Part shown: positions 30,491-46,966 of the stretch, piece by piece
How the letters are laid out: the number at the start of each line of letters is the position of its first letter
Numbering within the stretch: position 1 is the first letter of the stretch
From: an uncultured Colwellia sp.
GTDB lineage: Bacteria; Pseudomonadota; Gammaproteobacteria; Enterobacterales; Alteromonadaceae
Direction of reading: 5' to 3'
Length of the DNA stretch: 64,000 nucleotides
Assembly (NCBI GenBank): GCA_913061475.1
Contig: CAJXUN010000006.1
Location: forward strand, 62,001-126,000
Made by a program: the position numbers and the translations under genes
The notes under the pieces: model-generated
Told to the model about the DNA's origin: nothing
Seen by the model: only the letters and a program-made list of their open reading frames with translations
Databases searched by the model: none

Positions 30491-30841
30491 CTAAACCTGC
30501 TGAATTGGTTTGTTGGACGAAATAAAAGCCAAGATAAAAGACAAACAAAAAACAATAAACGTGCCTAAGGTTTCCTGACCATAAGTTAATAGGTTAAAGT
30601 GAAATAAAATATTTTCGACAAAACCTAGCACAAAGCCACAGCCTAACAACACTTTATTATTTAAATACCCTGGCGCTCGGCATATTTTTGCCAATAGATA
30701 ACCGGCAACGGGAAAGGTCGACCAAATAAAAAATACCACTAGCGAGAAAAACATAGCTAACGGCGTAATACTTGAAAAGATCAGTTTCTCAATGACGGCA
30801 TATGACTGTGCAACAATATAGCCTAAATATAAATACCACAT
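30491..30841 (-). CDS. Small membrane protein, unknown
   Basis: 116 residues with three or four hydrophobic segments (about 5-20, 26-50, 63-82 and 90-108). No family recognised. It lies downstream of the thioesterase gene at the end of the CoA-ligase/ABC cluster, on the same strand, with a 145-bp gap, so membership of that operon is possible but not shown. Confidence 0.55.
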   Translation of the reverse strand: MWYLYLGYIVAQSYAVIEKLIFSSITPLAMFFSLVVFFIWSTFPVAGYLLAKICRAPGYLNNKVLLGCGFVLGFVENILFHFNLLTYGQETLGTFIVFCLSFILAFISSNKPIQQV

Positions 30842-30986
30842 AAAACCTCTTTAATAACTGCACTTTTATAGCTCGATTGCACTTTAAAGCTAGTGTTACA
30901 GTATCTTTAAAAAGTTACTTTGATCTCAGACAGGTGATATTTATTTTATCGGCATATTAATACTCAAGAAGCGCCAGCATTAGCAG

Positions 30987-31487
30987 CTAGGTCGGGCTCA
31001 TGGAATCAGGCATTTTTACTGCGATTACCGTACCTTTAGCGCAAATAACATTGTTTGCTGATACCGTTATCTCTACCACCACTTTTTTGGCTTTTATTTC
31101 AGTAAAGGTACCGATAAGTTCAAGCTCTACACCCATCGGTGTTGGCGCTAAATAACTAACATTTAGCGCAGCAGTTACAAAACGTAATGCAGGTAAAGTG
31201 CCCATAGCACGCTCTGCTTGCCGATATGCCATAGCAGCAGCGCTGCCTGTGCCATGACAATCGATCAGTGAAGCAATTAAGCCACCGTAAACAAAGCCAG
31301 GAATAGCAGTATGACGTTGCTCAGGCATAAAATGGGCAACAGTTTCTTCAGCGGTTTTTTCATTCACATTGCCTTGTTCAGTGTGCCAATAACTTTTTAG
31401 TTGATGACCATCATGGTTATTTTTACCACAACCATAACAGTGGCTAAGTTCTTCTGGGTAACAGTCTTGAAAGGCCATGTTGCTCAC
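30987..31487 (-). CDS. PaaI-type hotdog thioesterase
   Basis: 166 residues. 'IPGFVYGGLIASLIDCHGTGSAAAMA' is the hotdog helix with the HGG-like region, followed by 'ALNVSYLAPTPMGVELELIG'. An extra N-terminal 'CYGCG' Cys pair may bind metal. These enzymes hydrolyse acyl-CoA esters in the cytosol. It follows the PaaK-like ligase by 42 bp, so it probably releases CoA from products or dead-end esters of the ligases in this cluster. Confidence 0.82.
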   Translation of the reverse strand: MSNMAFQDCYPEELSHCYGCGKNNHDGHQLKSYWHTEQGNVNEKTAEETVAHFMPEQRHTAIPGFVYGGLIASLIDCHGTGSAAAMAYRQAERAMGTLPALRFVTAALNVSYLAPTPMGVELELIGTFTEIKAKKVVVEITVSANNVICAKGTVIAVKMPDSMSPT

Positions 31488-31529
31488 GGGTAACTCCTTT
31501 TTATATCGTTGTTGGTCATTATGCTATAG

Positions 31530-32780
31530 CTAAGCAATCTCTCTTTGGTCATCAATAACTTTACCATCATCAGGTAAACAACCTAAAGCAACAAGTTCAA
31601 CACTGCCATTGAGTTTGGTTAGTTGCTTTAAGCTATCGCTAAGTTGGCTTAGTAATAACTCAGTGTCGATATCCGCATTATGTGTATTATCAAACTCACA
31701 CTGTAAGTGCATTTTATCTTGATGAACTTGCTGAGTAACCGTTAAACGTACTTTCGAACAATATGTTGTGCTTAAGCGCACCCGTTCAATTTGCTCAGGA
31801 TGCACAAACATGCCCTTTACTTTTGTGGTTTGATCGGCTCGCCCTAGCCAGCCCTTAATACGCATATTGCTGCGACCACAAGCACTTTGTCCTGACTTAA
31901 TGGCAGATAAATCACCGGTTGCAAAGCGAATTAAAGGATAGTCAGCATTAAGGCTAGTAACGACCACCTCACCTATTTCACCATCCGCCACAGGCGCTAA
32001 GCTGCCAGGTCGAACAATTTCAACAATGAGGTTTTCTGAAATAATTAATCCATCATCCGCGATACTTTCATAACCAATCAGCCCCACATCGGCACTGGCA
32101 TAAGCTTGTAAGACATTAATTCCTGCCTGAGTGAATTCATCGCGCAAAGCTTTGGGTAAGGCTTCGCCTGTTACTAAGGCCTTTTTGAGGCTGCTAATGT
32201 CGCGATTTTGCGCTTTTGCTTTATTGACTAAAATATTTAAAAACGATGGCGTACCGCAATACCCCTGAGGTTTTAGGTCTTCAATAATATCGAGTTGCTG
32301 CTCAGTTTGTCCTGGCCCAGCAGGAATTACCGTACAACCACAGGCACGTGCGCCAGAGTCGAGAATAAAGCCACCTGGGGTTAAATGATACGACAAGCAA
32401 TTTTGCACTAAGTCACCAGCAACAAAGCCTGCAGCATGGAAAGCTTGTCCCATGCGCCACCAATCATCTTGACAACTTTCAGGATCATAAATAGGTCCGG
32501 GAGATTGAAAAATTCGGCTAATCTGGCCATTACTGGTATTAAGACCTGCCAAAGGAGGTTGACGCTTTTGCAAAGTGATCAGATCTGATTTTCGCGTAAT
32601 AGGTAATTGTGCAAGCTCGGCTCGTGAGTTGATACTGTCGGCATTAATCTCGGCAAGTAGCTTTTGATAATAAGGGCTATGGCGCTGCACATTAGCAATA
32701 AATGTCGGTAATCGAGAGAACAATGACTGCTCTCTAGCTTCGCAAGCTTGATGTTCGTCTGGATGATAATAGGTCGTCAT
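31530..32780 (-). CDS. PaaK-like CoA ligase (AMP-binding)
   Basis: 416 residues, similar in length to phenylacetate-CoA ligases. The family segments are 'GTPSFLNILVNKAK', 'LVTGEALPKALRDEF', 'YASADVGLIGYE', 'PLIRFATGDLSAI' and 'RIKGWLGRADQTTKVKGMFVHPEQIE' before the C-terminal AMP-binding_2 subdomain. The classical N-terminal P-loop SSGTTG is replaced by 'FQSPGPIYDP', so the phosphate-binding loop is atypical. The likely reaction is ATP-dependent CoA thioesterification of a carboxylate. Substrate is unknown. It lies directly downstream of livF-like. Confidence 0.8.
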   Translation of the reverse strand: MTTYYHPDEHQACEAREQSLFSRLPTFIANVQRHSPYYQKLLAEINADSINSRAELAQLPITRKSDLITLQKRQPPLAGLNTSNGQISRIFQSPGPIYDPESCQDDWWRMGQAFHAAGFVAGDLVQNCLSYHLTPGGFILDSGARACGCTVIPAGPGQTEQQLDIIEDLKPQGYCGTPSFLNILVNKAKAQNRDISSLKKALVTGEALPKALRDEFTQAGINVLQAYASADVGLIGYESIADDGLIISENLIVEIVRPGSLAPVADGEIGEVVVTSLNADYPLIRFATGDLSAIKSGQSACGRSNMRIKGWLGRADQTTKVKGMFVHPEQIERVRLSTTYCSKVRLTVTQQVHQDKMHLQCEFDNTHNADIDTELLLSQLSDSLKQLTKLNGSVELVALGCLPDDGKVIDDQREIA

Positions 32781-32849
32781 AATAGCTCAAAGTTGTGTTA
32801 TTAAATGGATGGAAAAATATGAGTACTGGCTCACATTCACGAAATGCAA

Positions 32850-33671
32850 TTACAACCAACGCTTACGACGCTTGTAAGACTTCAAACCTTTAAAGCTTTT
32901 ACGCTCTTCATTACCGCCCCCAAGATAAAACTCTTTCACATCTTCGTTATTTAATAACTGCTCCTGTGTACCATCAAGCACCACCTTACCTGACTCCATA
33001 ATGTAGCCGTAATTTGCAGCTCTTAAGGCATAGTTAGCATTTTGCTCAACCAACAACATAGTAATCCCCTGATCTTGATTGATTTTTTTAATAATTCCAA
33101 AAACTTCTTTCACCAACAATGGTGATAACCCCATTGACGGCTCATCTAGGCAAATCATTTTGGGTCGTGCCATCAATGCTCGGCCAATGGCCAGCATTTG
33201 CTGCTCTCCACCTGATAAATATCCCGCTAAACCTGTACGTTCTTTTAAGCGAGGAAAGTAATGATAAACCATTTCTATATCTTGGTTTATTTGCGAATCT
33301 TTACGAGTGTACGCACCCAACTTTAAGTTTTCTAATGACGTCATATCTTCGATAATTCGACGACCTTCCATCACCTGAAACAGGCCGCTACGCACAACGT
33401 CTTCGGCGTTCTTACTATCAATACGTTCACCCAAAAAGGTAATATCGCCTTTAGTAACTTCGCCATTTTCCGTTTTCAATAAGCCTGAAATCGCTTTTAG
33501 CGTCGTCGATTTTCCCGCACCATTAGGTCCTAACAAAGTGACAACTTCGCCTTCTGGTACATCTAAACTCACGCCACGAAGTACTTGTATGACTTCGTCA
33601 TAAACGACTTCAATATTGTTTACAGTTAATATTGGTGATGCAGTTTGTAATTTTGTCGCTGCTTGTGACAT
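32850..33671 (-). CDS. ABC transporter ATPase, LivF type
   Basis: 273 residues. Walker A 'GPNGAGKST' (48-56), signature 'LSGGE' (152-156), Walker B 'MICLDEP' (172-178) and 'LLVEQNA' near the H-loop. The LivF-like branch is indicated by 'GLFQVMEGRRIIEDMTSLENL'. It extends beyond usual LivF with a basic C-terminal tail ('SYKRRKRWL'). With the LivG-like ATPase at 39162 it would power the LivHM-like permease of this operon. Confidence 0.88.
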   Translation of the reverse strand: MSQAATKLQTASPILTVNNIEVVYDEVIQVLRGVSLDVPEGEVVTLLGPNGAGKSTTLKAISGLLKTENGEVTKGDITFLGERIDSKNAEDVVRSGLFQVMEGRRIIEDMTSLENLKLGAYTRKDSQINQDIEMVYHYFPRLKERTGLAGYLSGGEQQMLAIGRALMARPKMICLDEPSMGLSPLLVKEVFGIIKKINQDQGITMLLVEQNANYALRAANYGYIMESGKVVLDGTQEQLLNNEDVKEFYLGGGNEERKSFKGLKSYKRRKRWL

Positions 33672-33779
33672 ACATACTCCGTATAAATTATGCTTTGCTA
33701 CTCGATTTATTAATCACTAAAAGGTTACTGAGCAAAGCATTCTCTTTGCCCAGTAACTTGTCATTCCAGAAGTTAACTA

Positions 33780-35027
33780 TTAATAACCTAACCAGTCGTC
33801 ACGACGGTCTAAGGTAACTTGTGATACCTTCTCTACGGTAATATCACCACCGTTGTAGTTACCCTTATAAATATTGACTTGGTTAATGCCACGATGATCT
33901 TCATCAGTCCAGTTAGCAGCTAAACAAACGCCATCCAATCCCTTTGGCACCCAATTTTTATGGGCATACATGCCTTTTTTGATGTTTTCACCGGTAATGC
34001 CACCGTTATCTTTTGCCCACTCCATCGCTTCTTTCATGAAGAACGTAGAACAAACACCACGAATATAATGGTGCACACGCTCTTCTGTTCCTGACTCATC
34101 CGATTGCTTAGAAATTTCACGTACCAACTTCATACCCGGCACATCGTCAGTCCAAAACGGGGTCATAGTAGGAAAAACATAATCTTTTATACCTTCACCT
34201 GCCGCACTAAATATTTTCTTATCGCCGCCCCAAATATTCGACATAAACTGAATATCAGTACCGACGGTATTACATGATTTAACCAAGGATAAAACTGAGC
34301 CACCTAAGTTACCGATGTAGCCATAGTTTGAACCTGAACTTTTCAGGCTTAAACATTGCGCCTTAAAGTCACCTGGTTTCATTGAAACGACTACAGCCGG
34401 TTGTACGTCAAAACCTAATTCTGTGGCATATTCTGCACAGGCTTCTTTCGGTGCGTTAGGGAATGGATGATTAGCTCCTATGTGAGTAAATTTGGGCTTA
34501 CCTTTACCTGCTTTATCTTGCCAATCTTGCGCAGCCCATTGCACTAAACCACGACAAGCATCTGAATAAGATGCCCCGTAAAAAAAGTTATAAGGCGCCG
34601 GCTTTTTGGTGTGTGGGTTCTTACCTGTTGGGTCAGTTAGATGTCCTGAATATGAGGCAGAGAAAACCGGCACTTTATCTTTAGCAACGAATGAAATAAG
34701 TGCTTCAGTATCCGCCGTTCCCCAACCTTGCATAGCAACCATTTTTTTACGCGAGTGCCATTTTTTATATGATGCGATCGCTTGCGGAACTTTGTAGGCA
34801 TAATCGATTGTTTCATATTCTAGCGTTGTGCCTTTGATACCGCCGTTGGCATTAATATAAGCGAGTGAATCGCGTACGCCATCAGCATAGTTTTTACCAA
34901 CAAAAGCGGTTGGCCCCGACATGTCAGCTAAGTGGCCAACAAATACGGTATCTTTTGCTAATACCTGAGTGCTCATCCCCAAAGCACAGCATACGAATAG
35001 AGAACTTAATTTTGCTATATGTTGCAT
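33780..35027 (-). CDS. ABC transporter periplasmic binding protein, LivJ/K-like
   Basis: 415 residues with a signal peptide (cleavage after 'VLA', about 24). 'VFVGHLADMSGPTAFVGKNYADGVRDSLAYINANGGIKG' is the family-6 binding-protein N-terminus (as in amide-, urea- and branched-chain amino-acid receptors). Mature Cys residues could form disulfides. It sits between the permease and the second ATPase. Given the neighbouring CoA ligases, the ligand is more likely a carboxylate than an amino acid (inference). Confidence 0.87.
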   Translation of the reverse strand: MQHIAKLSSLFVCCALGMSTQVLAKDTVFVGHLADMSGPTAFVGKNYADGVRDSLAYINANGGIKGTTLEYETIDYAYKVPQAIASYKKWHSRKKMVAMQGWGTADTEALISFVAKDKVPVFSASYSGHLTDPTGKNPHTKKPAPYNFFYGASYSDACRGLVQWAAQDWQDKAGKGKPKFTHIGANHPFPNAPKEACAEYATELGFDVQPAVVVSMKPGDFKAQCLSLKSSGSNYGYIGNLGGSVLSLVKSCNTVGTDIQFMSNIWGGDKKIFSAAGEGIKDYVFPTMTPFWTDDVPGMKLVREISKQSDESGTEERVHHYIRGVCSTFFMKEAMEWAKDNGGITGENIKKGMYAHKNWVPKGLDGVCLAANWTDEDHRGINQVNIYKGNYNGGDITVEKVSQVTLDRRDDWLGY

Positions 35028-35118
35028 GACTATTTCCTTCTTCTTTTAATGGCTATATTGCCAATGACTTGTTGTAATAATTGTTATTTATAGTTATATG
35101 TTGTTAAATTTCAGTAAA

Positions 35119-36192
35119 TTAGTATGAAAATGGATAGAATTTCCAATAGTTTTTAATTTGTGCCCAACGGTGTGCCATCCCTTCAGGTTCAAATATTAGG
35201 AATAAAATAATCACTAAACCTATCGCCATTTCTTTAATGTAAGCTAAGCCGTCAACCACCATAGGAATATTGCCCCATTCGGTCATTTTCATTAAGCCAA
35301 CACCACCTTCAAGCACTTCAGGTAAAAACACCATAAACACCACGCCCATCAAGGTACCTTTGACTGAGCCTAAGCCACCAATAATGATCATCGCTAAAAA
35401 TTGAATCGACATAAAAAGTGTGAATCCTTCGGCAGAAACATAACCTAAATAGTGAGCATATAAAGCACCACCAATACCTGCATAAAAAGACGAAACACCA
35501 AAAGACAATAAACGGTATTTGTTTAATTTAATGCCCATAATTTCAGCTGAAAGGTAATGGTCTCGCACCGCGATAAATGCCCGCCCTTCACGACTACGCA
35601 TTAAGTTACAACCCCAGATATACATAAATACTAAGGCAAACAACGCGACATAAAAAAAGCTTTCATCGGTGTCAAAAGCAAAACCAAATAAACTAATAGG
35701 ATCAGCAGATGAACCCGCTGAGCCACCAGAGAACCAATCAGCACGGGCAAAAAAGTCTTCTAAAATAAATTGCGCCGCTAATGTCGCTATTGCCAAATAC
35801 AAGCCTTTAATACGCGATGCCGGTAAGCCAAACACCATACCAACCCCCATAGTTAAAAAGCCCGCCAGTGGAATACAAAAGACCACGGGAATGCCAAAAG
35901 AGACATTCATCCAGGCAGAGGCAAAAGCACCAAAGCCAAAAAATGCCCCGTGTCCCAATGATATTTGTCCGGTATATCCCACTAAAATATTTAAACCTAA
36001 GGCGGCAATACCTAAATACGATATTTGAATAAATAACGTTAAGTAGTAGGCATCAACCAAATATGGTGCTGCGCATAGCAATGCGATAGCAATAATCGCG
36101 ATATTTCTGATCGTGCTGGTTTCAAAAATGGTGTTATCTTGTTTATAGCTAGTACGGAAATCACCGCACGGTCGCATCGTTAAACTCGACAT
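35119..36192 (-). CDS. ABC permease, LivM type
   Basis: 357 residues with about ten TM helices. 'ALGLNILVGYTGQISLGHGAFFGFGAF' is the LivM signature, and the cytoplasmic coupling motif 'FIAVRDHYLSAEIMGIKLNKYRLLSFGVSSFYAGIGGALYA' is present. It forms the inner-membrane channel with the LivH-type protein. The N-terminal ~30 residues ahead of TM1 are polar. It follows the LivH-type gene by 106 bp. Confidence 0.9.
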   Translation of the reverse strand: MSSLTMRPCGDFRTSYKQDNTIFETSTIRNIAIIAIALLCAAPYLVDAYYLTLFIQISYLGIAALGLNILVGYTGQISLGHGAFFGFGAFASAWMNVSFGIPVVFCIPLAGFLTMGVGMVFGLPASRIKGLYLAIATLAAQFILEDFFARADWFSGGSAGSSADPISLFGFAFDTDESFFYVALFALVFMYIWGCNLMRSREGRAFIAVRDHYLSAEIMGIKLNKYRLLSFGVSSFYAGIGGALYAHYLGYVSAEGFTLFMSIQFLAMIIIGGLGSVKGTLMGVVFMVFLPEVLEGGVGLMKMTEWGNIPMVVDGLAYIKEMAIGLVIILFLIFEPEGMAHRWAQIKNYWKFYPFSY

Positions 36193-36298
36193 AATTAACT
36201 CCTAAAAACTCGAGGTTATTCGCTGTAAATTGGCGCTACCGCTTTATCAGTAGCGCGCTCAATTTTGACGACAATATTTTCATTACAATGGCGAAAGG

Positions 36299-37192
36299 TT
36301 AAATTCGTTCGATATCTTTGGTGCCAAATAAACCATAAGGTTTGAACCAAAGAATAATAAGTAATACGTAAAACGGGGCTATGTCATACATGTTGCCGAC
36401 ATGTAAGTATTGGCTGTCGAAAAATTCAGCGACATTTTCTAGTACCCCAATAATTAAGCCACCAACAATAGCGCCGATAATGGAATCTAAACCGCCGAGA
36501 ATAACCGCTGGGAATACTTTAATACCAATAATAGATAATGAGTTTGATACCCCGCTAACCATGGCAATAACCACACCGGCCGTTGCCGAAACCGTAGCAG
36601 CAATACCCCAGCTCATGGCAAACACTTGCTTAACAGAAATACCCAAGCTTTGTGCTATTTGCTGATCAAAAGCGGTAGCACGCATCGCTAAACCATATTT
36701 CGAATGTTTAAAGAACAAGTAGAAAGCGACCATAATAATCAGCGCAATCACCGTACTCATTAAGTAGGCCGTTTCGATATGCAAACCCAAAATTTGAATG
36801 CTTTCAGTTTCAAACACCTTAGGGAAACTTTGTGCTGAGACACCGAAAATCCACTTCATCAGGGCTTGGAAAAATATCGATAAACCAATAGTCACCATAA
36901 TCACCGAAATAATAGGCTCGCCGATCATGGGTCGTAACACGATCATTTGCAGCATAACGCCAAATACCGCCATAAATGCCATGGTCAGTAAAAATCCGAC
37001 AATAAAGGGCAACTCTAAGTAGATAAGTAATGCCCAACACACCCAGGCCCCAATCAAAAGAAACTCACCTTGGGCAAAGTTTACAATTTGAGTCGACTTA
37101 TAAACTAAGACAAAACACATGCCTACCACACCGTACAATAAGCCAACAATAAGGCCATTGACGATGAGTTGCGTTAATAGCTCAAAATTCAT
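36299..37192 (-). CDS. ABC permease, LivH type
   Basis: 297 residues, about eight TM helices. 'GLLYGVVGMCFVLVYKSTQIVNFAQGEFLLIGAW' is the LivH signature, and 'AMRATAFDQQIAQSLGISVKQVFAMSWGIAA' the coupling loop. The start codon overlaps the stop of the acyl-CoA synthetase gene by 4 bp (ATGA), so translation is coupled and the ligase is an integral part of the transporter operon. Confidence 0.92.
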   Translation of the reverse strand: MNFELLTQLIVNGLIVGLLYGVVGMCFVLVYKSTQIVNFAQGEFLLIGAWVCWALLIYLELPFIVGFLLTMAFMAVFGVMLQMIVLRPMIGEPIISVIMVTIGLSIFFQALMKWIFGVSAQSFPKVFETESIQILGLHIETAYLMSTVIALIIMVAFYLFFKHSKYGLAMRATAFDQQIAQSLGISVKQVFAMSWGIAATVSATAGVVIAMVSGVSNSLSIIGIKVFPAVILGGLDSIIGAIVGGLIIGVLENVAEFFDSQYLHVGNMYDIAPFYVLLIILWFKPYGLFGTKDIERI

Positions 37193-39162
37193 GATGCTCT
37201 CCGTTCTATATTTGCTTGCTCAATAGCCGCTTTACTTGATTGTTCATTAGCAATCAATGACGTGACGTTAAGCTGGGTTTGAATACGGGTTTTGGTGCCA
37301 TCTTGGAAAACAACCGTGGTATCAATATCAACCACATCTTTGTTGTCATAAATAGCTGAAATAATGTCGCCATATTTATCAGCGATAACACCACGACGTA
37401 CTTTACGTGTCCGAGTTAGTTCGCCATCATCAGCGTCTAATTCTTTGTAAAGCAGTAGAAATTTATGAATTTTTTGAGCTTCAGGTAATGTCTCATTCAC
37501 CCGTGAAATTTCTTCGGCGAGCTTGGCGTAAACTTCAGGTAAGGTAGACAGATTGGTATAATTAGTGAAAGCAAAACCATTTTGTTCAGCCCACTTAGCA
37601 ACAATACTAAAACGAATACAAATAATCGCCGATAAGTAAGGTTTGTCTTTACCTAAAATAACCGCTTCACCAATAAAAGATGAAAACTTAAGTTTGTTTT
37701 CAATGTATTGCGGTGAGTACTGCGCACCATTGCTAGTACAAGCAAGATCCTTAATACGATCAATAACCACTAAATGCCCTGATGGTTTAAAATAACCGGC
37801 ATCACCGGTTTGCATCCAGCCATCAATAACATCTTCGTCATAAGCTTTTTGGTTATTTAAGTAGCCGGTAAACATACCCACTGTTCGGGCAATAATTTCG
37901 CCGACACCTGATTCATCGGTATTAATCACCTTAATTTCGGCGCTATCAAACGCGACACCAACACTGTCATAGTCGACATCATCTTCATGGTGAATAGTGT
38001 AAGCACCACACATTTCTGTTTGGCCATAAAGTTGGCGTAAAGGCACACCGATAGTTTGGAAGAATTTAAAGGTATCTGGCCCCATTGCCGCACCACCTGT
38101 GGCCGCTGACTTTAAAAATGAAAAACCGAGACGATCTCGTAATGCTTTCATTAATAACACCTCAGCAAGCCATGACTTTTCACCTTGCGCTTGGCTTTTT
38201 TCAGCGAGTTTCATGGCATAATTGAATAGTTTGCGCTTCAGTGGTGTTGAGTCCATCATGCGCGCTTGCACGTCAGCTAAAATACCTTCCCAAACACGCG
38301 GAGCCAATAGCACAAAACTTGGCCCTATTTCCCGTAGGTCTGACATTAAAGTTTCTTGCTCTTCAACAAAATTAACAATCTGACGTGCAATCAAGGCTTG
38401 CCCTAACGCATACACTTGTTCCATGATCCAAGGCAGCGGCAATACCGAAACATAATTATCTCCGGGTTGTCGAGGATCAGCTCTAAGGTATGAACTGCAG
38501 TGTTTAACAAAATCACCACCATTGAGTAAGGCAATTTTAGGCTTTGATGTGGTGCCTGAAGTCGTACAATAAATCGAAATATCTTCGGGCGTTGTGGCAG
38601 CAGTTAATTGCTTATAACCTTGTGGATTTTCTTTGTCTATCTTCTGACCTAATTGATAAACCGCATTTATATCAACCAACCTAGCGTCTGAATATTTACG
38701 CATGCCTCTAGGGTCACAATAAACAATAAACTTAACCTTTGGAATATTATCCGCCAGTTCAAGTAGCTTGTCGCATTGCTCTTCGTTTTCAGCAACAACG
38801 ACTGTTGCCCCACTATTTTCAAGCAAATAAACCACTTCTTCATGCATTGAGTCTTGATAAATGCCGATGGAATAACAACGCATCGCATGGGCGGCTACTT
38901 CACCCCAAATCCATTCAGGACGGTTATCGCCGAGTAAGGCAATAGCATCACCTTGGCTAACGCCCATATCCAATAATCCCAAGCTCAACCATTTCACCCG
39001 ATCGTTATAATCGCTCCAAGTGAACTCGTTCCAAATACCAAATTCTTTTTCACGCATCGCAATCGCATTTGGCCAATTTTCAGCATTGTGCTGTAAAATT
39101 TTTGGGAAGGTATTTAACGTTCCCATTTCAAAATCATTACTAGTTTGGGTTACGGCATTCAT
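37189..39162 (-). CDS. AMP-dependent acyl-CoA synthetase, long-chain (FAA1-like) type
   Basis: 657 residues. The P-loop-like 'CTTSGTTSKPKIALL' (about 201-215), 'YGQTEMCGAY' (ATP-binding), 'GWMQTGDAGYF' and 'VIDRIKDL' are the core motifs of adenylate-forming ligases. The length and the C-terminal extension resemble eukaryotic-type long-chain acyl-CoA synthetases often found inside Liv-type operons. It would activate an imported acid as its CoA ester. It overlaps livG by 1 bp and livH by 4 bp. Confidence 0.88.
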   Translation of the reverse strand: MNAVTQTSNDFEMGTLNTFPKILQHNAENWPNAIAMREKEFGIWNEFTWSDYNDRVKWLSLGLLDMGVSQGDAIALLGDNRPEWIWGEVAAHAMRCYSIGIYQDSMHEEVVYLLENSGATVVVAENEEQCDKLLELADNIPKVKFIVYCDPRGMRKYSDARLVDINAVYQLGQKIDKENPQGYKQLTAATTPEDISIYCTTSGTTSKPKIALLNGGDFVKHCSSYLRADPRQPGDNYVSVLPLPWIMEQVYALGQALIARQIVNFVEEQETLMSDLREIGPSFVLLAPRVWEGILADVQARMMDSTPLKRKLFNYAMKLAEKSQAQGEKSWLAEVLLMKALRDRLGFSFLKSAATGGAAMGPDTFKFFQTIGVPLRQLYGQTEMCGAYTIHHEDDVDYDSVGVAFDSAEIKVINTDESGVGEIIARTVGMFTGYLNNQKAYDEDVIDGWMQTGDAGYFKPSGHLVVIDRIKDLACTSNGAQYSPQYIENKLKFSSFIGEAVILGKDKPYLSAIICIRFSIVAKWAEQNGFAFTNYTNLSTLPEVYAKLAEEISRVNETLPEAQKIHKFLLLYKELDADDGELTRTRKVRRGVIADKYGDIISAIYDNKDVVDIDTTVVFQDGTKTRIQTQLNVTSLIANEQSSKAAIEQANIERRAS

Positions 39163-39983
39163 CAGCTTACCTCCGCTAATTTTGCTTGTTGTTCTGATGA
39201 TGTCTCTTCACTTTCTTCAAGCCCTAAGTAAGCGCGCTTAACATAAGGATCTGCCATCACTTCTTCAGGTAAACCACAAATCAGTTTTTTACCAAAATCA
39301 AGCACCATGACTTCATGTGAAATATCCATCACCACGCCCATATCATGCTCAATCATCACCACGGTAATACCAAACTCTTCGTTTAAATCGAGAATATATC
39401 TCGCCATATCCTCTTTCTCTTCTAAGTTCATTCCAGCCATCGGCTCATCAAGCAGAATCAACTTGGGGTTTAACGCCATTGCCCGCGCTAACTCGACACG
39501 TTTGCGCAATCCGTAAGATAAAGTGCCAGCAATAGATTTGCGAATATGAGAAATTTCCAGAAAGTCGATAACTTCTTCAACTTTACGGCGATGCTCTAGT
39601 TCTTCTTTTTGAGCACCTGACGCCCAATATAATGGCCCAGTCAGCCAGTTATTTTTTAATAGGTGATGACGTCCAACCATAATATTATCGAGTACTGACA
39701 TATGACCAAACAAAGCTAGATTTTGAAAAGTACGACCCATACCTAGATCGGCGCGGTCATTGGGGCGCAAACCGGTAACGTTCTTACCATCGAAAGTAAT
39801 GCTGCCGCTGTTAGGCTGATAGCGGCCAGAAATGCAATTGAGCATTGATGTTTTGCCCGCACCATTGGGCCCGATAATCGAAAAAACTGAGCCTTTTTTT
39901 ACTGAAAAGCTAACATCGGTTAAGGCTTTAACACCACCAAACGCCAGTGATATTTGCTCTATATTGAGTATCGACGCAGTCAT
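39162..39983 (-). CDS. ABC transporter ATPase, LivG type
   Basis: 273 residues from ATG 39983, which has a perfect AGGAGG ribosome site; the frame extends upstream to 40079, but that extension carries no domain and crosses the terminator region. Walker A 'GPNGAGKTS' is at 38-46, signature 'LSYGLRKRVELARAMALNP', Walker B 'LILLDEP', H-loop 'VMIEHDM'. This is the first gene of the transporter operon; its stop overlaps the ligase start (TGATG). Confidence 0.9.
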   Translation of the reverse strand: MTASILNIEQISLAFGGVKALTDVSFSVKKGSVFSIIGPNGAGKTSMLNCISGRYQPNSGSITFDGKNVTGLRPNDRADLGMGRTFQNLALFGHMSVLDNIMVGRHHLLKNNWLTGPLYWASGAQKEELEHRRKVEEVIDFLEISHIRKSIAGTLSYGLRKRVELARAMALNPKLILLDEPMAGMNLEEKEDMARYILDLNEEFGITVVMIEHDMGVVMDISHEVMVLDFGKKLICGLPEEVMADPYVKRAYLGLEESEETSSEQQAKLAEVS

Positions 39984-40038
39984 ACTCAACCTCCTAAATT
40001 CAAGTGGGGGAAATAACGTTCTGTTGCAGCTCACGTTT

Positions 40039-40068
40039 AAAAAAAGAGAGGGGGCAAGCCCCCTCCCA
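40039..40068 (-). terminator. Strong terminator after the porin gene
   Basis: On the minus strand an 8-bp GC-rich stem (GAGGGGGC / GCCCCCTC) with a 2-nt loop is followed by TCTTTTTTT. It ends porin transcription about 60 nt after its stop and separates it from the transporter operon, which then needs its own promoter or read-through. Confidence 0.9.
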
Positions 40069-40070
40069 AA

Positions 40071-40097
40071 ACGTAACAACGATTGGGAAAGTTACGT
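40071..40097. promoter_or_regulatory. ACGTAAC-N13-GTTACGT dyad
   Basis: Perfect 7-bp inverted repeats separated by 13 bp, with half-sites 20 bp apart (two helical turns), between the porin stop and the terminator, about 90-115 bp upstream of the LivG-type start. It could be an operator for the transporter operon or part of an mRNA 3' structure of the porin transcript. No regulator is assigned. Confidence 0.3.
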
Positions 40098-40124
40098 AAG
40101 CTTCAACATTAGAACAGGGGGAAA

Positions 40125-41165
40125 TTACAATGCGTATCTCATTGTTGCTTGTACATAGGTGGAGTCTTTATCTAGCTCATCAATAGAGAAGTTACCCACC
40201 TCAATACCTACCGCGAGATCTTTGGTTAAGTCTTGGAATAAGTTAACGCCCCACTGTGTGCGCTCGCGATCAGAAACATCACCTTCAACTTTGCCGTACA
40301 GCACCGTTGAACGTAAGGTCTCATTCCAGAAGTGACGATAAGCAACTAATACAGAGGTCAGGTCTTCAACTTCTTCACCATAAAGATCCTTAACTGCAGC
40401 AACACCAACGTAACGACCTAATTCACCTTTATGAAATTGAAAACGAATATCATCTTTACCGCTGGTTTTAATACGACCAGCCACTGAGGCGCCAAATGCC
40501 CTTTCACTATTACCTAAGGTAGTATTTAATTCTCGCGCTAAACCCGATACGGAAACACTGCCCCAGTCGCCTTTAAAGTTATAACGCGCGACAATATCAG
40601 GCACGCTATCATTGGCGGTATCACCACCCCAGCTTTCAGGGTTTTCTAAGGCAACTTGAAAGTTACCTACGTTGTAACGAACTTGACCTTGGCGTATAAA
40701 AACCAACCCCGTTGTCGCACCAGCAAAATCTGCTGACTCAGGAATAGCACTGGTATTCATAAAGGTTGACCATGTTTGACCAACGGTTAAGTCTTTGTAT
40801 TTAACAAATGCATGACGAATACGCGGATGCGCCGAATTCGACACAATTTCATTACCGCCACCGCCCCAAAAATCCATTTCTATAAAGCCCATAACGTCAC
40901 CATGAACATATTTGGTATTAAAGCGTGTTTCATTGGCAAAAATCTTAAATTGTGAAGCATTTTCTGAAAGCGCCGCGCCATCACCGATCCAAAAATCACG
41001 GTAAGCTACATCACCGTCTACATAGCGAGCATCTATTTTGATGTAACCACCAAAGGTTAATTTATCATTGTCTGTTAATTCAATTTCATAACCGGCAAAT
41101 GCCGAACTTGTTGCCACCATAAACGAAGATGCGAGTAATAATTTTTTATATTTTGAGTTAAACAT
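40125..41165 (-). CDS. DcaP-like outer-membrane porin
   Basis: 346 residues with a signal peptide (cleavage after 'SAFA', about 24). The mature protein begins 'YEIELTDNDKLTFGGYIKIDARY' and alternates polar/hydrophobic strands, ending in Leu after an aromatic ('ATMRYAL'), as expected for an outer-membrane barrel. 'GFIEMDFWGGGGNE' and 'KDLTVGQTWSTFMN' resemble the DcaP family of trimeric porins that pass dicarboxylates. Position upstream of a carboxylate-activating ABC operon supports an acid-uptake role. Confidence 0.82.
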   Translation of the reverse strand: MFNSKYKKLLLASSFMVATSSAFAGYEIELTDNDKLTFGGYIKIDARYVDGDVAYRDFWIGDGAALSENASQFKIFANETRFNTKYVHGDVMGFIEMDFWGGGGNEIVSNSAHPRIRHAFVKYKDLTVGQTWSTFMNTSAIPESADFAGATTGLVFIRQGQVRYNVGNFQVALENPESWGGDTANDSVPDIVARYNFKGDWGSVSVSGLARELNTTLGNSERAFGASVAGRIKTSGKDDIRFQFHKGELGRYVGVAAVKDLYGEEVEDLTSVLVAYRHFWNETLRSTVLYGKVEGDVSDRERTQWGVNLFQDLTKDLAVGIEVGNFSIDELDKDSTYVQATMRYAL

Positions 41166-41253
41166 CTAGCTATTCCCCTTGTATTTTTTGTACGTTCAAT
41201 ACTAAACACGTCGAAAAAATCAACAATTGGAAATAAGACCTAGCACCTTGCAA

Positions 41254-41271
41254 TTAGTCCTTTAGTCTAGT
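41254..41271. promoter_or_regulatory. 18-bp motif shared with 49759-49776
   Basis: TTAGTCCTTTAGTCTAGT in the divergent promoter region, 88 bp upstream of the porin start and 82 bp upstream of the kinase start. The identical 18-mer occurs inverted upstream of the response regulator. It contains two TTAGTC repeats 8 bp apart. The likely explanation is a binding site for the regulator partnered with this kinase. This is inference. Confidence 0.5.
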
Positions 41272-41353
41272 GCGATGTTGTTTGACTTGTGACACCAAAT
41301 GGCAACAGCTAAGATGAAGAAAAATAATAATTTTCCCGCACCATAAGGACGAT

Positions 41354-44300
41354 ATGTTTTCGAATTGGTTACTGGTAAGTGTCAGTATTGGCTACATAAG
41401 TCTATTGTTTCTTATTGCCTATTTGGGCGGGAAATATCGTCATAAATTAGCCGAGAAACAAACGGCAATTATTTATGCGCTATCGTTAGGTGTGTACTGT
41501 ACATCGTGGGGTTTTTTAGGCACGTCTGCACAAGCAGCCAAAAGCTCTTTTACCTACATTTCGGTGTATTTAGCCCCTATATTACTGTTTGTTTTTGCTT
41601 GGCCATTTATTCAGCGAATTATCAAGACCTGTTTAAAACTAAAAATAACCTCTATTGCTGACCTGCTTTCAGCACGTTTCGGTAAGTCGCAAAGCCTAGC
41701 CTTCATTGTTACCGTTGTCGCGCTCATTGGCACCCTGCCGTATATTGCCTTGCAGCTAAAAGCGATTGTTTATTCATATAAAATACTGCAACAAAATCAA
41801 GACTTTCCTGTTTGGCAGTTAGGCTTAATTGTCAGTACTATTTTGGCCGGGTTTAGTATTATTTTTGGCATTCGAACCATTGATGTTACAGAACGACATC
41901 CGGGGGTGATGATCGCCATCGCCTTCGAGTCAGCAGTAAAGCTTATTGCTTTTTTAATGGTTGGCATTTTTGTATCATTTTTTATCTATGACTCACCAGC
42001 AGAAATTTGGCGATTATCACAAGACCATGTCTCAATTAGCCAACAGTTTGAAAGTACCAATATCATTAACATGGTAGGACTACTGATTATTGTTATGTCA
42101 GCCTTCCTTTGTTTACCGCGACAGTTTCAAGTGATGTTTGTCGAAATTAAAGAACAAAAAAATAGTAACTTGGCGCGTTGGTGGTTGCCGGCATATATTT
42201 TAGTATTTGCATTTTTTGCCGGTCCTATCGGGCTTGCTGGCACTTTAAACTATGGCCAATCTTTAGAGCCAGACGCTTACGTATTATTTTTACCCGCTTA
42301 TAATGGCCAAGTTTGGCTGTCATTATTTGCCTTCCTCGGCGCAGTTTCAGCTGCAAGCTCTATGGTTATTGTCTCGACAATTGCCTTAAGCACTATGTTA
42401 AGCAACGAGATTGTCTTTCCGTTAATGTTCAAGCTATCGCCGCAAAAACAGCATGATTTTTTACATTTTCAATCACGATTATTGCGTATTCGCAAAGCCT
42501 TAGTGATCACCGTGATCACCTTAAGTTATGGCATGCTTTTGTTATCACCACCCGATACTCTTTCTTCTTTGGGTGAAGTTGCCTTTGGTGCCATAGCGCA
42601 AATTGGACCGGCACTCATTGCGGCTTTTTTCTGGCGCCGCGCCACTCATAAGGGCGTACTCTGGGGCATAGGCAGTGGTTTTTCTATCTGGATTATATTT
42701 AATTTGTTACCCCAATTAGGTTTTTATACCCATCCGTTAGCAAATTCAGCATTCTCCGCTACCACCATTGTCACGCTGATAGGTCTTCTCATTAACATTC
42801 TCGTATTAGTGATTGTTTCCTTGCTCACGCGGCAAAGCATCCGCGAAGAAATGCAAAGTAAGTTTTTCTACAAGCAAGACCAGCACCCGCAATCTCATTT
42901 ACCTAAACAGCCCAGAATTGATATTCGAGAGCTAGAGTATTTAGTCGCCAGATTTATTGGTCAGGAAAAGTCATCGGAGTGTTTTGAGAGCTTTAATTCT
43001 GTACATAAAAATAAAAAACAAAAAAGCTACAATGAAGCCCTGATCTTTCATGCCGAGCATACCCTTGCTAGCGTTATCGGCTCAGCGTCAGCAAAACTGG
43101 TTATTTCCTTTGCCCTTGGTGGTCGTGATATCGCCTTTGATCAAGTGGCTAAAATTGTTGAAGACAACTCAAGCCAACAATTAGAATTTAGCCGTTCAGT
43201 ACTACAAGGAGCTATTGAAAACACTAGCGAAGGTATTTCTGTTATTGATGGCAATTTAAATTTAGTCGCATGGAATAAACAGTACTTAGACATTTTCAAT
43301 TACCCGCCTGGCTTTATCTATATTGGTTGCCATGTTAGTAACGTTATTCGCTTTAATCTCAGTAATCAAAAGCGCTACATTCATGACATTGACGCACAAG
43401 TACAAAAGCGTTTGCAGTTCATAAGAGCAGGCAGCAAGCACAAATCGGAACGTAAATTGTCAAATGGCAAAATAATTAACATAGAAGGAAACCCAATTCC
43501 CGGTGGCGGCTTTGTGATGATTTTTTCCGATATTACTGAATACCGACGCGCTGAAAAATACCTAAAAGAAGAAAATACCGACCTGGAGAGTCGAGTGTTA
43601 AGCCGAACGAAAGAGCTTGAACAAGCCAACCTAGAACTTGAAAAAGCCAATCAAGACTTAGCCAATGCACAACTTAAAGCCGAACAAGCGCACTTAAAAA
43701 AGAGCCAATACTTGCGCGCCTGTAGTCATGATTTATTACAACCATTATCGGCCGCTCGCCTTTTCTCCTCTGCGGTCAGTTTAAGTGCAAAAGTAACCAA
43801 GCAAGAACGCGAACAAATCAAACAAATTGATACTTCGCTAGAAATTGCCAATAATTTATTGTTAGATTTAAACGAAATAGCGCGGATAGAAAGCGGTAAT
43901 ATCAGCCCCGATATCAGTACATTTGCTGTAAAAAAACTGTTTTCTATGCTGCATTCTGAGTTCTGTGCATTGAGCAAAGATTACCAAATTGACTTTCATT
44001 GCTTTTCAAGCGACTTGTATATTAAAAGTGACTTCACGCTATTATCACGCATTATTCAAAATTTCCTGAGTAATGCCTTTCGCTACGCGAGTAACGGTAA
44101 GGTATTACTGGGTTGTCGCCGCAAAGGGCAGTACCTTTGTTTACAAGTGTTAGACAACGGTCCCGGTATACCTGAAGATAAGCAGCAACAAGTATTTGAA
44201 CAATTCACCCAGCTATCAACAAAATTAGTCGGCCCCAAGGGCCTAGGTTTAGGTTTGAATATCGCGCAAAGCCTAGCTGAAATTTTAAATCATCAGCTAG

Positions 44301-44896
44301 GTTTAATCTCAAAAGCTGGCCACGGCTGTTTATTTAGCGTCAGTGTTCCTATGGCGGCGGCACCGACATTGCAGCAAGCCAAACCTTTACGCGCAAGCAC
44401 CACCTTACAGGGTGTTAGTGTTTTATGTATCGATAACGAAGCGGCGGTATTGTCAGGTATGAATGACTTATTATCGGCATGGAAATGTAAAGTGTACAGC
44501 GCAATAAGTGCTGAACAAGCGATTGAAGTTTATCAAAAACACGAAGAAGAAATCGATATAGTCTTAGTTGACTATCAATTAGTCTCAGAAAATACCGCGA
44601 ACATATTATCATCCGATTCGGCTTTTATTCCTAAGCAACCTAAAGACAATAATCATGATATCGCTAACTTCAACGGCATTGAGTTGATAAAGCATTTACG
44701 CGCCATAAGCCACTACCCTTTACCGGCGATTTTGATCACCGCCACAACCGACGAAAGCGTTTTAGGACAAGCTCAACAAGTCGATATGGGCTACCTAAGA
44801 AAAATAGTTAAACCGATAGCTTTACGGGCACTAATGAGTTCTTTACTCACCAAAGAACTCGAAAGAAACTATATACCTGATAACTTTAACCTATAG
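41354..44896 (+). CDS. Symporter-PAS-histidine kinase-receiver hybrid sensor (CrbS-like)
   Basis: 1180 residues. An SSS-family symporter module with about 13 TM helices fills residues 1-490. A PAS-like segment follows (about 615-720, 'ENTSEGISVIDGNLNLVAWN'), then a coiled coil (about 735-780), an H-box 'CSHDLLQPL' (His792), a HATPase domain ('NFLSNAFRYA', 'DNGPGIP', 'GLGLGLNIAQ') and a C-terminal receiver with phospho-acceptor Asp1073 ('VLVDYQL'). CrbS/MxtR proteins of this layout pair with a LuxR-type regulator and control acetate use. Divergence from the porin/ABC cluster suggests this one watches the same acid. Its partner is probably the regulator at 48721-49368. Confidence 0.9.
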   Translation: MFSNWLLVSVSIGYISLLFLIAYLGGKYRHKLAEKQTAIIYALSLGVYCTSWGFLGTSAQAAKSSFTYISVYLAPILLFVFAWPFIQRIIKTCLKLKITSIADLLSARFGKSQSLAFIVTVVALIGTLPYIALQLKAIVYSYKILQQNQDFPVWQLGLIVSTILAGFSIIFGIRTIDVTERHPGVMIAIAFESAVKLIAFLMVGIFVSFFIYDSPAEIWRLSQDHVSISQQFESTNIINMVGLLIIVMSAFLCLPRQFQVMFVEIKEQKNSNLARWWLPAYILVFAFFAGPIGLAGTLNYGQSLEPDAYVLFLPAYNGQVWLSLFAFLGAVSAASSMVIVSTIALSTMLSNEIVFPLMFKLSPQKQHDFLHFQSRLLRIRKALVITVITLSYGMLLLSPPDTLSSLGEVAFGAIAQIGPALIAAFFWRRATHKGVLWGIGSGFSIWIIFNLLPQLGFYTHPLANSAFSATTIVTLIGLLINILVLVIVSLLTRQSIREEMQSKFFYKQDQHPQSHLPKQPRIDIRELEYLVARFIGQEKSSECFESFNSVHKNKKQKSYNEALIFHAEHTLASVIGSASAKLVISFALGGRDIAFDQVAKIVEDNSSQQLEFSRSVLQGAIENTSEGISVIDGNLNLVAWNKQYLDIFNYPPGFIYIGCHVSNVIRFNLSNQKRYIHDIDAQVQKRLQFIRAGSKHKSERKLSNGKIINIEGNPIPGGGFVMIFSDITEYRRAEKYLKEENTDLESRVLSRTKELEQANLELEKANQDLANAQLKAEQAHLKKSQYLRACSHDLLQPLSAARLFSSAVSLSAKVTKQEREQIKQIDTSLEIANNLLLDLNEIARIESGNISPDISTFAVKKLFSMLHSEFCALSKDYQIDFHCFSSDLYIKSDFTLLSRIIQNFLSNAFRYASNGKVLLGCRRKGQYLCLQVLDNGPGIPEDKQQQVFEQFTQLSTKLVGPKGLGLGLNIAQSLAEILNHQLGLISKAGHGCLFSVSVPMAAAPTLQQAKPLRASTTLQGVSVLCIDNEAAVLSGMNDLLSAWKCKVYSAISAEQAIEVYQKHEEEIDIVLVDYQLVSENTANILSSDSAFIPKQPKDNNHDIANFNGIELIKHLRAISHYPLPAILITATTDESVLGQAQQVDMGYLRKIVKPIALRALMSSLLTKELERNYIPDNFNL

Positions 44897-45005: not shown

Positions 45006-45248
45006 ATGAATAGAATTATCCAACTTGGTTCAAAGACTGGAAAAATAATTAGTATTGAACAAGCTTTTAAATATACAACGATAATGAACTCTATGCTGAT
45101 TCAAACCCTAAGTGTTAAAGGGGCTACATTTGATGAAGAATCAATAGAAAATTGTTTGGTGAAATTTAGGTATAAGTCGTTTAAAGAACAAAAATCAGTT
45201 GGCTTTTGCTTCGTCGCTAATTATAGCCAACAATTTTTTGCCCCTTAA
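45006..45248 (+). CDS. Small ORF running into an attC-like site
   Basis: 80-codon frame whose last ~25 codons lie inside the attC-like site at 45171-45262. The AGGT 6 nt before the ATG is a modest ribosome site. The first ~55 residues look protein-like ('IISIEQAFKYTTIMNSMLIQ', then 'GATFDEESIENCLVKF'). No family recognised. It may be a degraded or truncated cassette gene whose natural stop was lost. Confidence 0.35.
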   Translation: MNRIIQLGSKTGKIISIEQAFKYTTIMNSMLIQTLSVKGATFDEESIENCLVKFRYKSFKEQKSVGFCFVANYSQQFFAP

Positions 45249-45262
45249 CTTGGGCGTTACAT
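45171..45262 (+). other. attC-like integron recombination site 1
   Basis: Starts TATAAGTCGTTTAAAG and ends GCCCCTTAACTTGGGCGTTAC, with an inner GTTGGCT/AGCCAAC stem (45198-45204, 45225-45231). The right end has the layout of integron attC R'/L' boxes: TTAA, then GGGCGTTA. The left box seems to have lost about 3 bp relative to TATAACAAG. The next gene begins 15 bp after the core GTT, as cassette genes do. Confidence 0.6.
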
Positions 45263-45276
45263 TTACAAGGAAGTTT

Positions 45277-46001: not shown

Positions 46002-46006
46002 TTTTT

Positions 46007-46930: not shown

Positions 46931-46966
46931 TTGCGTGATATATCAAATAAAGTGGAGATTACACCA

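Follow-up and report, generated by a model that had tools for sequence, protein, structure and literature searches.

A putative cassette for sensing, importing and activating a carboxylic acid in an uncultured Colwellia sp.

Results

Genes at the locus

The window, which is the whole 64,000-nucleotide stretch of Colwellia DNA analyzed, contains an operon and a divergent histidine kinase gene (Table 1). Read from its low coordinate, the operon encodes a thioesterase, a PaaK-like protein, LivF, a periplasmic binding protein, LivM, LivH, a FadD-like synthetase, LivG and a DcaP-like porin. All of the genes listed by the first-pass annotation (porin, Liv importer, synthetase, PaaK-like protein, thioesterase and divergent kinase) were thus found in the window. 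The Liv/HAAT ABC importer is complete, with two BPD_transp_2 permeases, two ATPases and one Peripla_BP_6 protein; the NCBIfam Liv names are those of the best-matching models, and the scores lie under those models' own cut-offs. The synthetase gene overlaps LivG by 1 base and LivH by 4 bases, which fits the translational coupling proposed for it earlier. LivG probably starts at an internal MTASILN, judged by eye, rather than at the TTG of the listed ORF. An ORF at 30491-30841 (116 aa) matched no Pfam family, had no counterpart found in related loci and was not counted as part of the system.

Table 1. Features of the locus (window coordinates)
Feature	Position	Strand	Basis
Operon, thioesterase through porin	30987-41165	-	
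Hotdog (4HBT/FlK-like) thioesterase	30987-31487	-	Pfam 4HBT 32 bits, cut-off 20.6
PaaK-like ANL protein	31530-32780	-	AMP-binding (second half of model only) and AMP-binding_C_2
LivF-type ABC ATPase	32850-33671	-	ABC_tran; best model PRK11614 LivF 223 bits, below cut-off 441
Periplasmic binding protein, Liv family	33780-35027	-	Peripla_BP_6 202 bits
LivM-type permease	35119-36192	-	Pfam BPD_transp_2
LivH-type permease	36299-37192	-	BPD_transp_2; overlaps FadD by 4 bases
FadD-like acyl-CoA synthetase	37189-39162	-	Full-length AMP-binding match
LivG-type ABC ATPase	39162-40079	-	ABC_tran; best model PRK11300 LivG 251 bits, below cut-off 362
DcaP-family outer-membrane porin, first gene of the operon	40125-41165	-	Pfam DcaP (PF19577) 56.4 bits, cut-off 27
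Divergent intergenic region	41166-41353		Conserved element and GTC-type repeats
SLC5-type hybrid histidine kinase	41354-44896	+	PAS_7, HisKA, HATPase_c, Response_reg (Pfam)
LuxR-type response regulator, probable kinase partner	48721-49368	-	Response_reg and GerE

Conservation of the core and its flanks

From 570 confirmed named relatives, the 80 best served as named loci for comparison; each contains FadD by construction, since the search was run with FadD. Of these 80, 65 keep the whole core in the order LivG-FadD-LivH-LivM-SBP-LivF-PaaK, 14 are cut by contig ends and one (L148) lacks PaaK. The neighborhood conservation that the first-pass annotation proposed to check held for the Liv-FadD-PaaK core, and the kinase and porin were restricted to a subset of the listed loci. 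The transport and CoA-tagging genes recur across Proteobacteria. In a phylum-level draw of 398 genomes, 66 have a FadD match of 400 bits or more, in a search that scored few candidates per genome and may have missed some; a class-level draw of 369 has 26 with FadD at E ≤ 1e-100. Within the genus, the cassette is missing from 10 of 17 genomes.

Acyl-CoA genes occur anywhere in the flanks of 33 of 82 listed loci. In 16 of the 68 listed loci with an anchor they follow the operon immediately, on its strand; named genes of this kind were found directly downstream neither in the other 52 nor in the window's operon. ORF calling was crude, and each cluster took its family name from a scan of one or two members. 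The families in this directly downstream position were acyl-CoA dehydrogenase (6), AMP-forming ligase (5), aldehyde dehydrogenase (4), thiolase (3), CaiB-type CoA transferase (3) and enoyl-CoA hydratase (2, one of them in a Thalassotalea locus, L074). An electron-transfer-flavoprotein subunit adjoins the operon in four Vibrio loci. The aldehyde dehydrogenase cluster is mixed, and two Colwellia members, located away from the operon, appear MmsA-like by eye. One flank cluster (C2) was set aside as aconitase-like by eye and unrelated to the system.

One intact ligase and a partner lacking the P-loop

The acyl-CoA synthetase (ANL) motifs are all present in FadD: the P-loop, A5 Glu, A7 Asp, A8 Arg and A10 Lys. 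P-loop residues 201-205, K209, E383, D454, R469 and K587, at motif positions that we assigned, do not vary among the aligned rows (21 of 21). A search of solved structures with the FadD profile gave no match at E ≤ 1e-60. In the PaaK-like protein, the P-loop, defined for PaaK as (S/T)(S/T/G)G(S/T)TGxPK (PMC8388817), is replaced by SPGP (residues 93-96). The first-pass annotation had called this P-loop atypical, and the trait proved to be real and family-wide: none of 85 aligned homologues (complete ORFs of at least 380 aa) has the canonical motif, with SPGP in 84 and SPGN in one. The A10 catalytic lysine is K407 in the window protein and is a lysine in 66 of the 85 rows, missing in 19. A structure model (pLDDT 90.7) has the PaaK fold, with TM scores of 0.81-0.86 to 2y4o_A, 4r1m_A and 6he0. 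PaaK1 and PaaK2 (2y27, 2y4o) share this fold and size, and the fold match to PaaK2 is at 28% identity, but the PaaK-like protein differs from both in having SPGP in place of the P-loop and an A10 lysine that is not conserved. Of the operon's two ANL proteins, only FadD looks like an intact ligase. The earlier count of two CoA ligases is accordingly doubtful, since FadD alone keeps the ligase motifs.

All 66 genomes in which FadD matched strongly also carry the PaaK-like protein, whereas only 1 of the 332 others had it; this search, too, scored few candidates per genome, so that misses are possible. A strong match means at least 400 bits, a line drawn after the gap was visible, and the two 398-genome draws behind the FadD and PaaK counts are taken as identical; at E ≤ 1e-100, three genomes (G539, G598 and G632) join as FadD-positive without PaaK. 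Absence of the ligases from orthologous operons, which had been named beforehand as an argument against the system, was not what the genomes showed. The PaaK-like protein looks like an obligate, probably non-adenylating partner.

Binding protein

The operon's binding protein is the single Peripla_BP_6 match in the genome at E ≤ 0.001. Residue E249 of LivJ (E226 of the mature protein) is the contact that holds the amino group of the ligand. Both reference rows, LivJ and LivK, have glutamate at this position; the window protein has I265, and all 29 aligned rows have V or I, in an alignment to LivJ that is distant (24% identity) yet clear around the amine site. The binding protein is therefore probably of a non-amino-acid type. 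Its nearest solved folds are 3eaf, 3lkb and 4n03, of which the second-best, 3lkb, binds valine. Fold neighbors are mixed and include binders of valine, fatty acid, hydroxybenzoates and urea, so the fold leaves the substrate undecided.

Liv systems had been described in the first-pass annotation as amino acid importers, a generalization that published Liv-type proteins for non-amino acids contradict (PMC3223731). In Rhodopseudomonas, very few of the tested Liv-type binding proteins are reported to take Leu, Ile or Val; the ligands reported instead are aromatic, fatty or dicarboxylic acids or amino acids of other kinds, and CoA-ligase genes (hba, cou, pim) adjoin some of the binding proteins (PMC3223731).

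Kinase, regulator and porin

A simple hydropathy scan placed 13 hydrophobic segments in kinase residues 6-480, the number of helices of an N-terminal SLC5 domain, and one more at 571-589. The Pfam SSF model gave no match to the kinase at E ≤ 1; the protein does match a solved histidine kinase, PDB 10ed, with an E of 1e-87 across profile positions 5-544. A STAC domain would be expected at residues 496-615. The CrbS-type features are present, namely PAS, DHp, CA and REC domains and a LuxR-type partner. The gene for this regulator was absent from the gene set of the first-pass annotation.

Operon-linked kinases form one clade (support 100/100), as do operon-linked regulators (100/99), the window regulator included; both clades stand apart from the genome's CrbS/R-like paralogues. 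An extra kinase is present in 7 of 7 operon-bearing genomes of the genus (own included) versus 0 of 10 others, in a search that scored few candidates per genome and may have missed some, and this second copy is additional to the paralogue. Counting the window's own genome, 11 relatives bear the operon and 10 of them have the kinase next to it; the kinase is ~2.2 kb from FadD in 10 genomes, and one genome (G109) has the operon without kinase or porin. Among the named loci, the kinase adjoins the operon in 17 of 19 of the Colwellia/Shewanella/Oceanospirillaceae type (L070-L087, L097), the other two being cut there. None of the 63 other named loci listed has it, and 48 of them extend beyond LivG by over 6 kb on the upstream side; this marks the sensor as an addition specific to certain lineages. 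The regulator is near the kinase in 14 of the 17 kinase-bearing loci, and L080 has none within 4 kb beyond the kinase. Two matching kinases (35-54% identity) also occur in two genomes that lack the operon, G027 and G066. Adjacency, co-occurrence and trees support the reading of kinase and regulator as an operon-specific duplicate of a CrbS/R-like pair. The earlier proposal of a porin, importer and synthetase set with its own symporter-type kinase is supported.

Clade-specific kinase residues number 15, and the 8 that fall within the SLC5 part are not enough to identify a ligand. Signaling by SLC5-type kinases is reported not to require transport (PMC5715377); what the sensor domain binds may therefore differ from the imported acid.

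The DcaP porin is next to the operon in 15 of the 17 kinase-bearing loci listed and in none of the other loci surveyed, which makes it largely uninformative about the core; its DcaP match is distant (56 bits). The thioesterase occurs in nine surveyed loci, 8 of the 17 kinase-bearing ones and L077.

Intergenic region

Alignment of 18 intergenics revealed a conserved CAATYGGNAATAAG element and GTC-type repeats in the divergent region, which are possible regulator sites. The extended CAATYGGNAATAAG element has its sole perfect genome match in the window's intergenic region. The published CrbR box (PMC5715377) is exact in 8 of the 18 operon intergenics, comprising 7 of 7 from Shewanella/Parashewanella and 1 of 10 other non-Shewanella ones, and intergenics with one box are not significant singly (p 0.056-0.092). 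No exact CrbR box (ACTU box) is present in the window's intergenic region, and the combined box-plus-TTGAC pattern has one genome match, located elsewhere.

Discussion

The locus is probably a cassette dedicated to sensing, importing and activating a carboxylic acid other than an amino acid. Gene content and order, phylogenetic linkage, co-occurrence and motif loss are direct observations; the direction of transport, the coupling, the substrate class, the signal of the kinase and the role of the PaaK-like protein are inferred. The acid would cross the outer membrane through the porin, and the binding protein would deliver it to LivHMGF for entry into the cell. Synthesized in step with the permease, FadD would convert it to the CoA ester and thereby trap it, and the operon-specific CrbS/R-like kinase and regulator would turn on the divergent operon when the acid or its product is present. 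Rather than serving as another conventional ligase, the PaaK-like protein probably works with FadD on acyl-AMP or acyl-CoA. The most likely acid class is a medium-chain or branched fatty-type monocarboxylic acid entering beta-oxidation, which is the weakest point of the proposal and lies outside the confidence placed in the cassette as such.

Two narrower readings are, for the importer, sub-cases of this cassette. A dicarboxylic acid importer with a DcaP porin and a pim-like ligase is unlikely. It draws on reports that Acinetobacter DcaP3 is required for growth on di- and tricarboxylic acids (PMC12338516), that pim-adjacent binding proteins take dicarboxylic as well as fatty acids (PMC3223731) and that a predicted ABC transporter is required on pimelate in Ralstonia CL21 (PMC12543098); however, a distantly matching porin confined to the kinase-bearing loci listed has little bearing on the core. 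An aromatic acid importer like hba/cou, with the PaaK-like protein as aryl-CoA ligase, seems distinctly unlikely. Kinship to PaaK and fold matches of the binding protein to 4q6w (3-hydroxybenzoate) and 4evs (4-hydroxybenzoate) are set against the loss of the P-loop in 85 of 85 homologues, the FadD type of the synthetase inside the operon, and the flanking clusters inspected (ten scanned, others by eye), among which no ring-cleavage or ring-reduction gene was recognized.

It is very unlikely that this is an ordinary branched-chain amino acid importer that shares its operon with acyl-CoA genes by chance. The closest models by name for LivG, LivF, LivH and LivM are branched-chain amino acid ones, the fold matches include leucine binders besides the valine-binding 3lkb, and the genome has no other Peripla_BP_6 protein. 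The V/I at the amine site in 29 of 29 rows nevertheless argues against amino acids, as do the position of FadD within the operon, overlapping both neighbors, the 10 genus genomes without the cassette and the acyl-CoA genes flanking 33 loci. We consider it very unlikely that the kinase is a mere neighbor that regulates acetate functions. Its resemblance to CrbS, the lack in the window of the sole published box tested, and the paired kinases of G027 and G066 would fit such a role, but the additional copy tracks the operon through the genus, the linked kinases and regulators each form one clade, and the spacing from FadD recurs in 10 genomes.

The obligate P-loop-less partner is the most novel part of the cassette. 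More tentatively, and with rather less than even confidence, the SPGP-type PaaK relative may be a conserved ANL-fold protein that has lost acyl-adenylate formation and serves as an obligate partner of the importer. It would receive acyl-AMP or acyl-CoA from FadD, itself coupled to transport, for the second half-reaction, hand-off or product sensing. Import and CoA trapping would then be one channeled machine, to which some lineages add a symporter-type sensor of its own. If true, this would be a new role for an ANL protein.

Known systems share parts of this arrangement. The hbaEFGHI, couPSTU and pim-linked importers of Rhodopseudomonas palustris also have ABC genes beside CoA-ligase genes, and their binding proteins have aromatic, fatty or dicarboxylic acids as ligands, but as described there they apparently lack a synthetase between LivG and LivH, a P-loop-less PaaK partner and an SLC5 kinase (PMC3223731). 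CrbS/CrbR (MxtR/ErdR) of Pseudomonas and Vibrio share the 13-helix SLC5, PAS, kinase and receiver domains and the LuxR-type partner, and their published-type boxes recur in the Shewanella loci of the cassette (PMC5715377). Unlike CrbS/CrbR proper, which control acs in response to acetate through the ACTU box, the cassette pair belongs to separate clades, is tied to the Liv-FadD operon rather than to acs/actP, and shares its genome with a CrbS/R-like paralogue. Such a duplicated pair is a natural experiment on the ligands of SLC5-kinase sensors. A term search of a study on MxtR/ErdR targets in P. putida found no mention of an ABC transporter or ligase (PMC9927547). RpuS/RpuR of Sinorhizobium fredii is likewise an SLC5/STAC kinase system controlling expression of an uptake system, although its reported target is the pyruvate symporter MctP and not an ABC importer with a CoA synthetase (PMC9100948). 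Acinetobacter DcaP porins belong to the same Pfam family as the operon porin, which is a distant match in another operon context. RB-TnSeq in Ralstonia/Cupriavidus is reported to identify a predicted ABC transporter that growth on C7-C8 fatty acids depends on, which may or may not be this cassette (PMC12543098). A literature search mostly outside subscription journals found no published description of the full gene set. The cassette is widespread, and in Azospirillum and Peteryoungia its genes are annotated as branched-chain amino acid transport, long-chain fatty acid-CoA ligase or simply AMP-binding protein; current labels may thus hide a common route of acid uptake.

Organization and conservation of the cassette

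The operon and its sensor pair (table) are well supported as a real, dedicated system predicted to sense, import and activate an acid. The LivG and FadD genes overlap by 1 base, and FadD and LivH by 4 bases. Using FadD as the query, which places FadD in every named locus by construction, the order LivG-FadD-LivH-LivM-binding protein-LivF-PaaK was complete in 65 of the 80 named loci (the best 80 of at least 570 confirmed relatives). A contig end interrupts the core in 14 of the 80, and L148 is the sole locus of 80 with no PaaK within 5.8 kb after LivF. Record titles place the named loci in the Gamma-, Alpha- and Betaproteobacteria, the Desulfuromonadales and one Stygiobacter MAG. FadD was detected at E ≤ 1e-100 in 11/118 relatives (own genome included), 26/369 genomes of the class and 69/398 of the phylum. 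Other genomes have a second cassette order with FadD first, where FadD is mostly 35-39% and PaaK 46-55% identical; at L163, L167, L171, L173, L176 and other FadD-first loci, the permeases have diverged and the PaaK-like protein is well conserved.

A hydrophobic 116-aa ORF (30491-30841) at the operon end has no Pfam family and no match across the 82 related loci surveyed. At 27570-30426, an SCP2 ORF is divergent from two U32 peptidase-family ORFs (minus strand); we take the U32 pair and the SCP2 ORF to be probably UbiV, UbiU and UbiT of oxygen-independent ubiquinone synthesis.

Features of the operon and sensor pair
Feature	Coordinates	Strand	Remarks
Thioesterase	30987-31487	-	
PaaK-like protein	31530-32780	-	
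LivF	32850-33671	-	
Binding protein	33780-35027	-	Peripla_BP_6
LivM	35119-36192	-	
LivH	36299-37192	-	
FadD	37189-39162	-	
LivG	39162-40079	-	
Porin	40125-41165	-	
SLC5-type hybrid kinase	41354-44896	+	Divergent from operon; PAS_7, HisKA, HATPase_c, Response_reg
LuxR-type response regulator (probable partner of the kinase)	48721-49368	-	

The PaaK-like protein

The PaaK-like protein was found at E ≤ 1e-70 in 67/398 genomes, with one match in each. It is present in 66/66 genomes with a FadD match of at least 400 bits versus 1/332 others (Fisher 3e-75, a value that ignores relatedness and uses a 400-bit line set afterwards). In 59/67 genomes it lies within 13 kb of a FadD match on the same strand. 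In four of the other eight the two genes share a contig at a distance of 1 to 29 kb but point in opposite directions; in one the distance is 186 kb, in two the genes are on separate contigs, and G689 has no FadD match. These counts show that the PaaK-like protein accompanies the cassette also in genomes where the two are apart.

Motifs were compared in 85 aligned homologues including the window protein, all encoded by complete ORFs no shorter than 380 aa and drawn from both gene orders. The motif at the P-loop position is SPGP in 84/85 and SPGN in 1/85, bearing out the atypical P-loop noted in the first-pass annotation; the canonical form occurs in 0/85. The A10 lysine is K in 66/85 and lost in 19/85 (Shewanella, Parashewanella, Vibrio and several further lineages). 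The A8 motif GRAD is found in 85/85 and A7 TGD in 83/85. According to PMC8388817, the P-loop serine and threonines of PaaK1 bind the ATP phosphates and the A10 lysine is the key catalytic residue of the enzyme class. The structural model (pLDDT 90.7) has a PaaK-like fold and superimposes on 2-hydroxyisobutyryl-CoA ligase with TM 0.86 in the thioesterification state (6he0) and 0.71 in the post-adenylation state (6hdx); the better predicted fit to the former is only a hint. Two CoA ligases had been proposed for the operon. The second gene is indeed there and its product is a conserved cassette member, but given the noncanonical P-loop it is probably not an ordinary ligase.

Binding protein and substrate

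The window binding protein is the genome's only Peripla_BP_6 match. Its I265 aligns with LivJ Glu249 (also E in LivK), which we take to be the holder of the amino group, and is V or I in 29/29 rows. The nearest folds to its model (pLDDT 86) were 3eaf, 3lkb (valine) and 4n03, whose title names a fatty acid ABC transporter; 4q6w (3-hydroxybenzoate) followed closely, and leucine and urea binders were also among the matches. Of the Rhodopseudomonas Liv-type binding proteins assayed in PMC3223731, very few bound Leu/Ile/Val; their ligands were other amino acids or aromatic, fatty or dicarboxylic acids. The premise that known Liv systems import amino acids is therefore wrong, although the sense-import-activate conclusion drawn from it for a carboxylic acid stands.

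A fatty-type monocarboxylic acid is the favoured substrate; a dicarboxylic or aromatic acid is less likely. Acyl-CoA genes lie directly downstream on the same strand in 16/68 anchored loci: a dehydrogenase in 6, an AMP-forming ligase in 5, an aldehyde dehydrogenase in 4, a thiolase in 3, a CaiB-type transferase in 3 and a hydratase in 2. None of these families is there in 52/68. Families were assigned by scanning one or two members of each cluster. At least one acyl-CoA gene occurs anywhere in the flanks of 33/82 loci. The flank ligase scanned best matched an acetate-CoA ligase model, then branched-chain MbcS. In four Vibrio loci the operon adjoins genes for an ETF beta subunit (identified by scanning) and for ETF alpha and ETF-quinone oxidoreductase (both recognised by eye).

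Kinase and response regulator

The N-terminal part of the kinase has 13 hydrophobic segments, with a 14th at 571-589, and is similar to 10ed, a histidine-kinase chain of solved structure (E 1.2e-54 alone, 1e-87 as a profile); the Pfam SSF model gave no match to the kinase at E ≤ 1. Gene-neighbourhood conservation, the check suggested earlier, holds for the core order and reaches the kinase in 17 of the same best 80 loci. All 17 fall within 19 Colwellia-, Shewanella- and Oceanospirillaceae-type loci (L070-L087, L097), and in the remaining two (L077, L085) the contig is cut at the kinase position. The kinase is adjacent in 0/61 remaining named loci; of all 63 lacking it, 48 extend over 6 kb beyond LivG on the upstream side.

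Among the 11 FadD-bearing relatives, nine (own included) have a 67-100% identical kinase ~2.2 kb from FadD, G099 has one 55% identical at ~2.2 kb, and G109 has none beside FadD. The best kinase in the 107 relatives without FadD is at most 57% identical, and two of them (G027, G066) each carry a pair of kinases that match at E ≤ 1e-200 with 35-54% identity. Within the genus, two such kinases occur in 7/7 operon-bearing genomes and one in 10/10 others. The 18 operon-linked kinases form a single clade (support 100/100) apart from paralogues, with branching inside it partly unsettled, and the 16 operon-linked regulators, including the window's, group together (100/99), likewise apart from their paralogues.

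A regulator is close to the kinase in 14/17 kinase-bearing loci; the contig is cut at its position in L079 and L087, and L080 has none within 4 kb of the kinase. Five ORFs (45199-48614: membrane, TPR, DUF1272, OmdA-like, GNAT) separate the two genes in the window. The paralogous kinase on contig C70 of the same genome is 55% identical and also adjoins a LuxR-type regulator; we infer that this pair is CrbS/R proper. A third SLC5-type kinase (1-1498, minus strand, 37% identical) straddles the window's left edge and adjoins a long ORF outside it that by eye is TonB-dependent receptor-like.

The divergent intergenic region and other regulators

In an alignment of 18 intergenic regions, an element resembling CAATYGGNAATAAG is conserved and GTC-type half sites recur. 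The window form of this CAAT element has its sole perfect genome match here; allowing two mismatches adds three, no more than a control pattern gave. The published CrbR box (ACTU, PMC5715377) was simplified by us to ACYWWNGTC on either strand. It occurs in 8/18 regions (all seven Shewanella/Parashewanella and L080) at 13 positions versus ~1.3 expected (sum of shuffle means), and is absent from the window region and nine others. The p values per region were 0.056-0.092 with one box and 0.002-0.006 with two or three; the sequences are related, hence these are not independent.

Other sensors seem to have been recruited to the cassette in other lineages. A PAS-type kinase and regulator are divergent to it in Peteryoungia (L003:5158-7841), gene clusters of both are also present in Terasakiella (L136), and short kinase-domain matches are divergent to it in L170, L174 and L176. 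A regulator gene lies just upstream of LivG in L104, L110, L112, L114 and L117, which are Desulfuromonadales/Geobacteraceae or deltaproteobacterial MAGs; that of L110, the one scanned of the five, is of the sigma-54 type and PrdR/AtoC-like.
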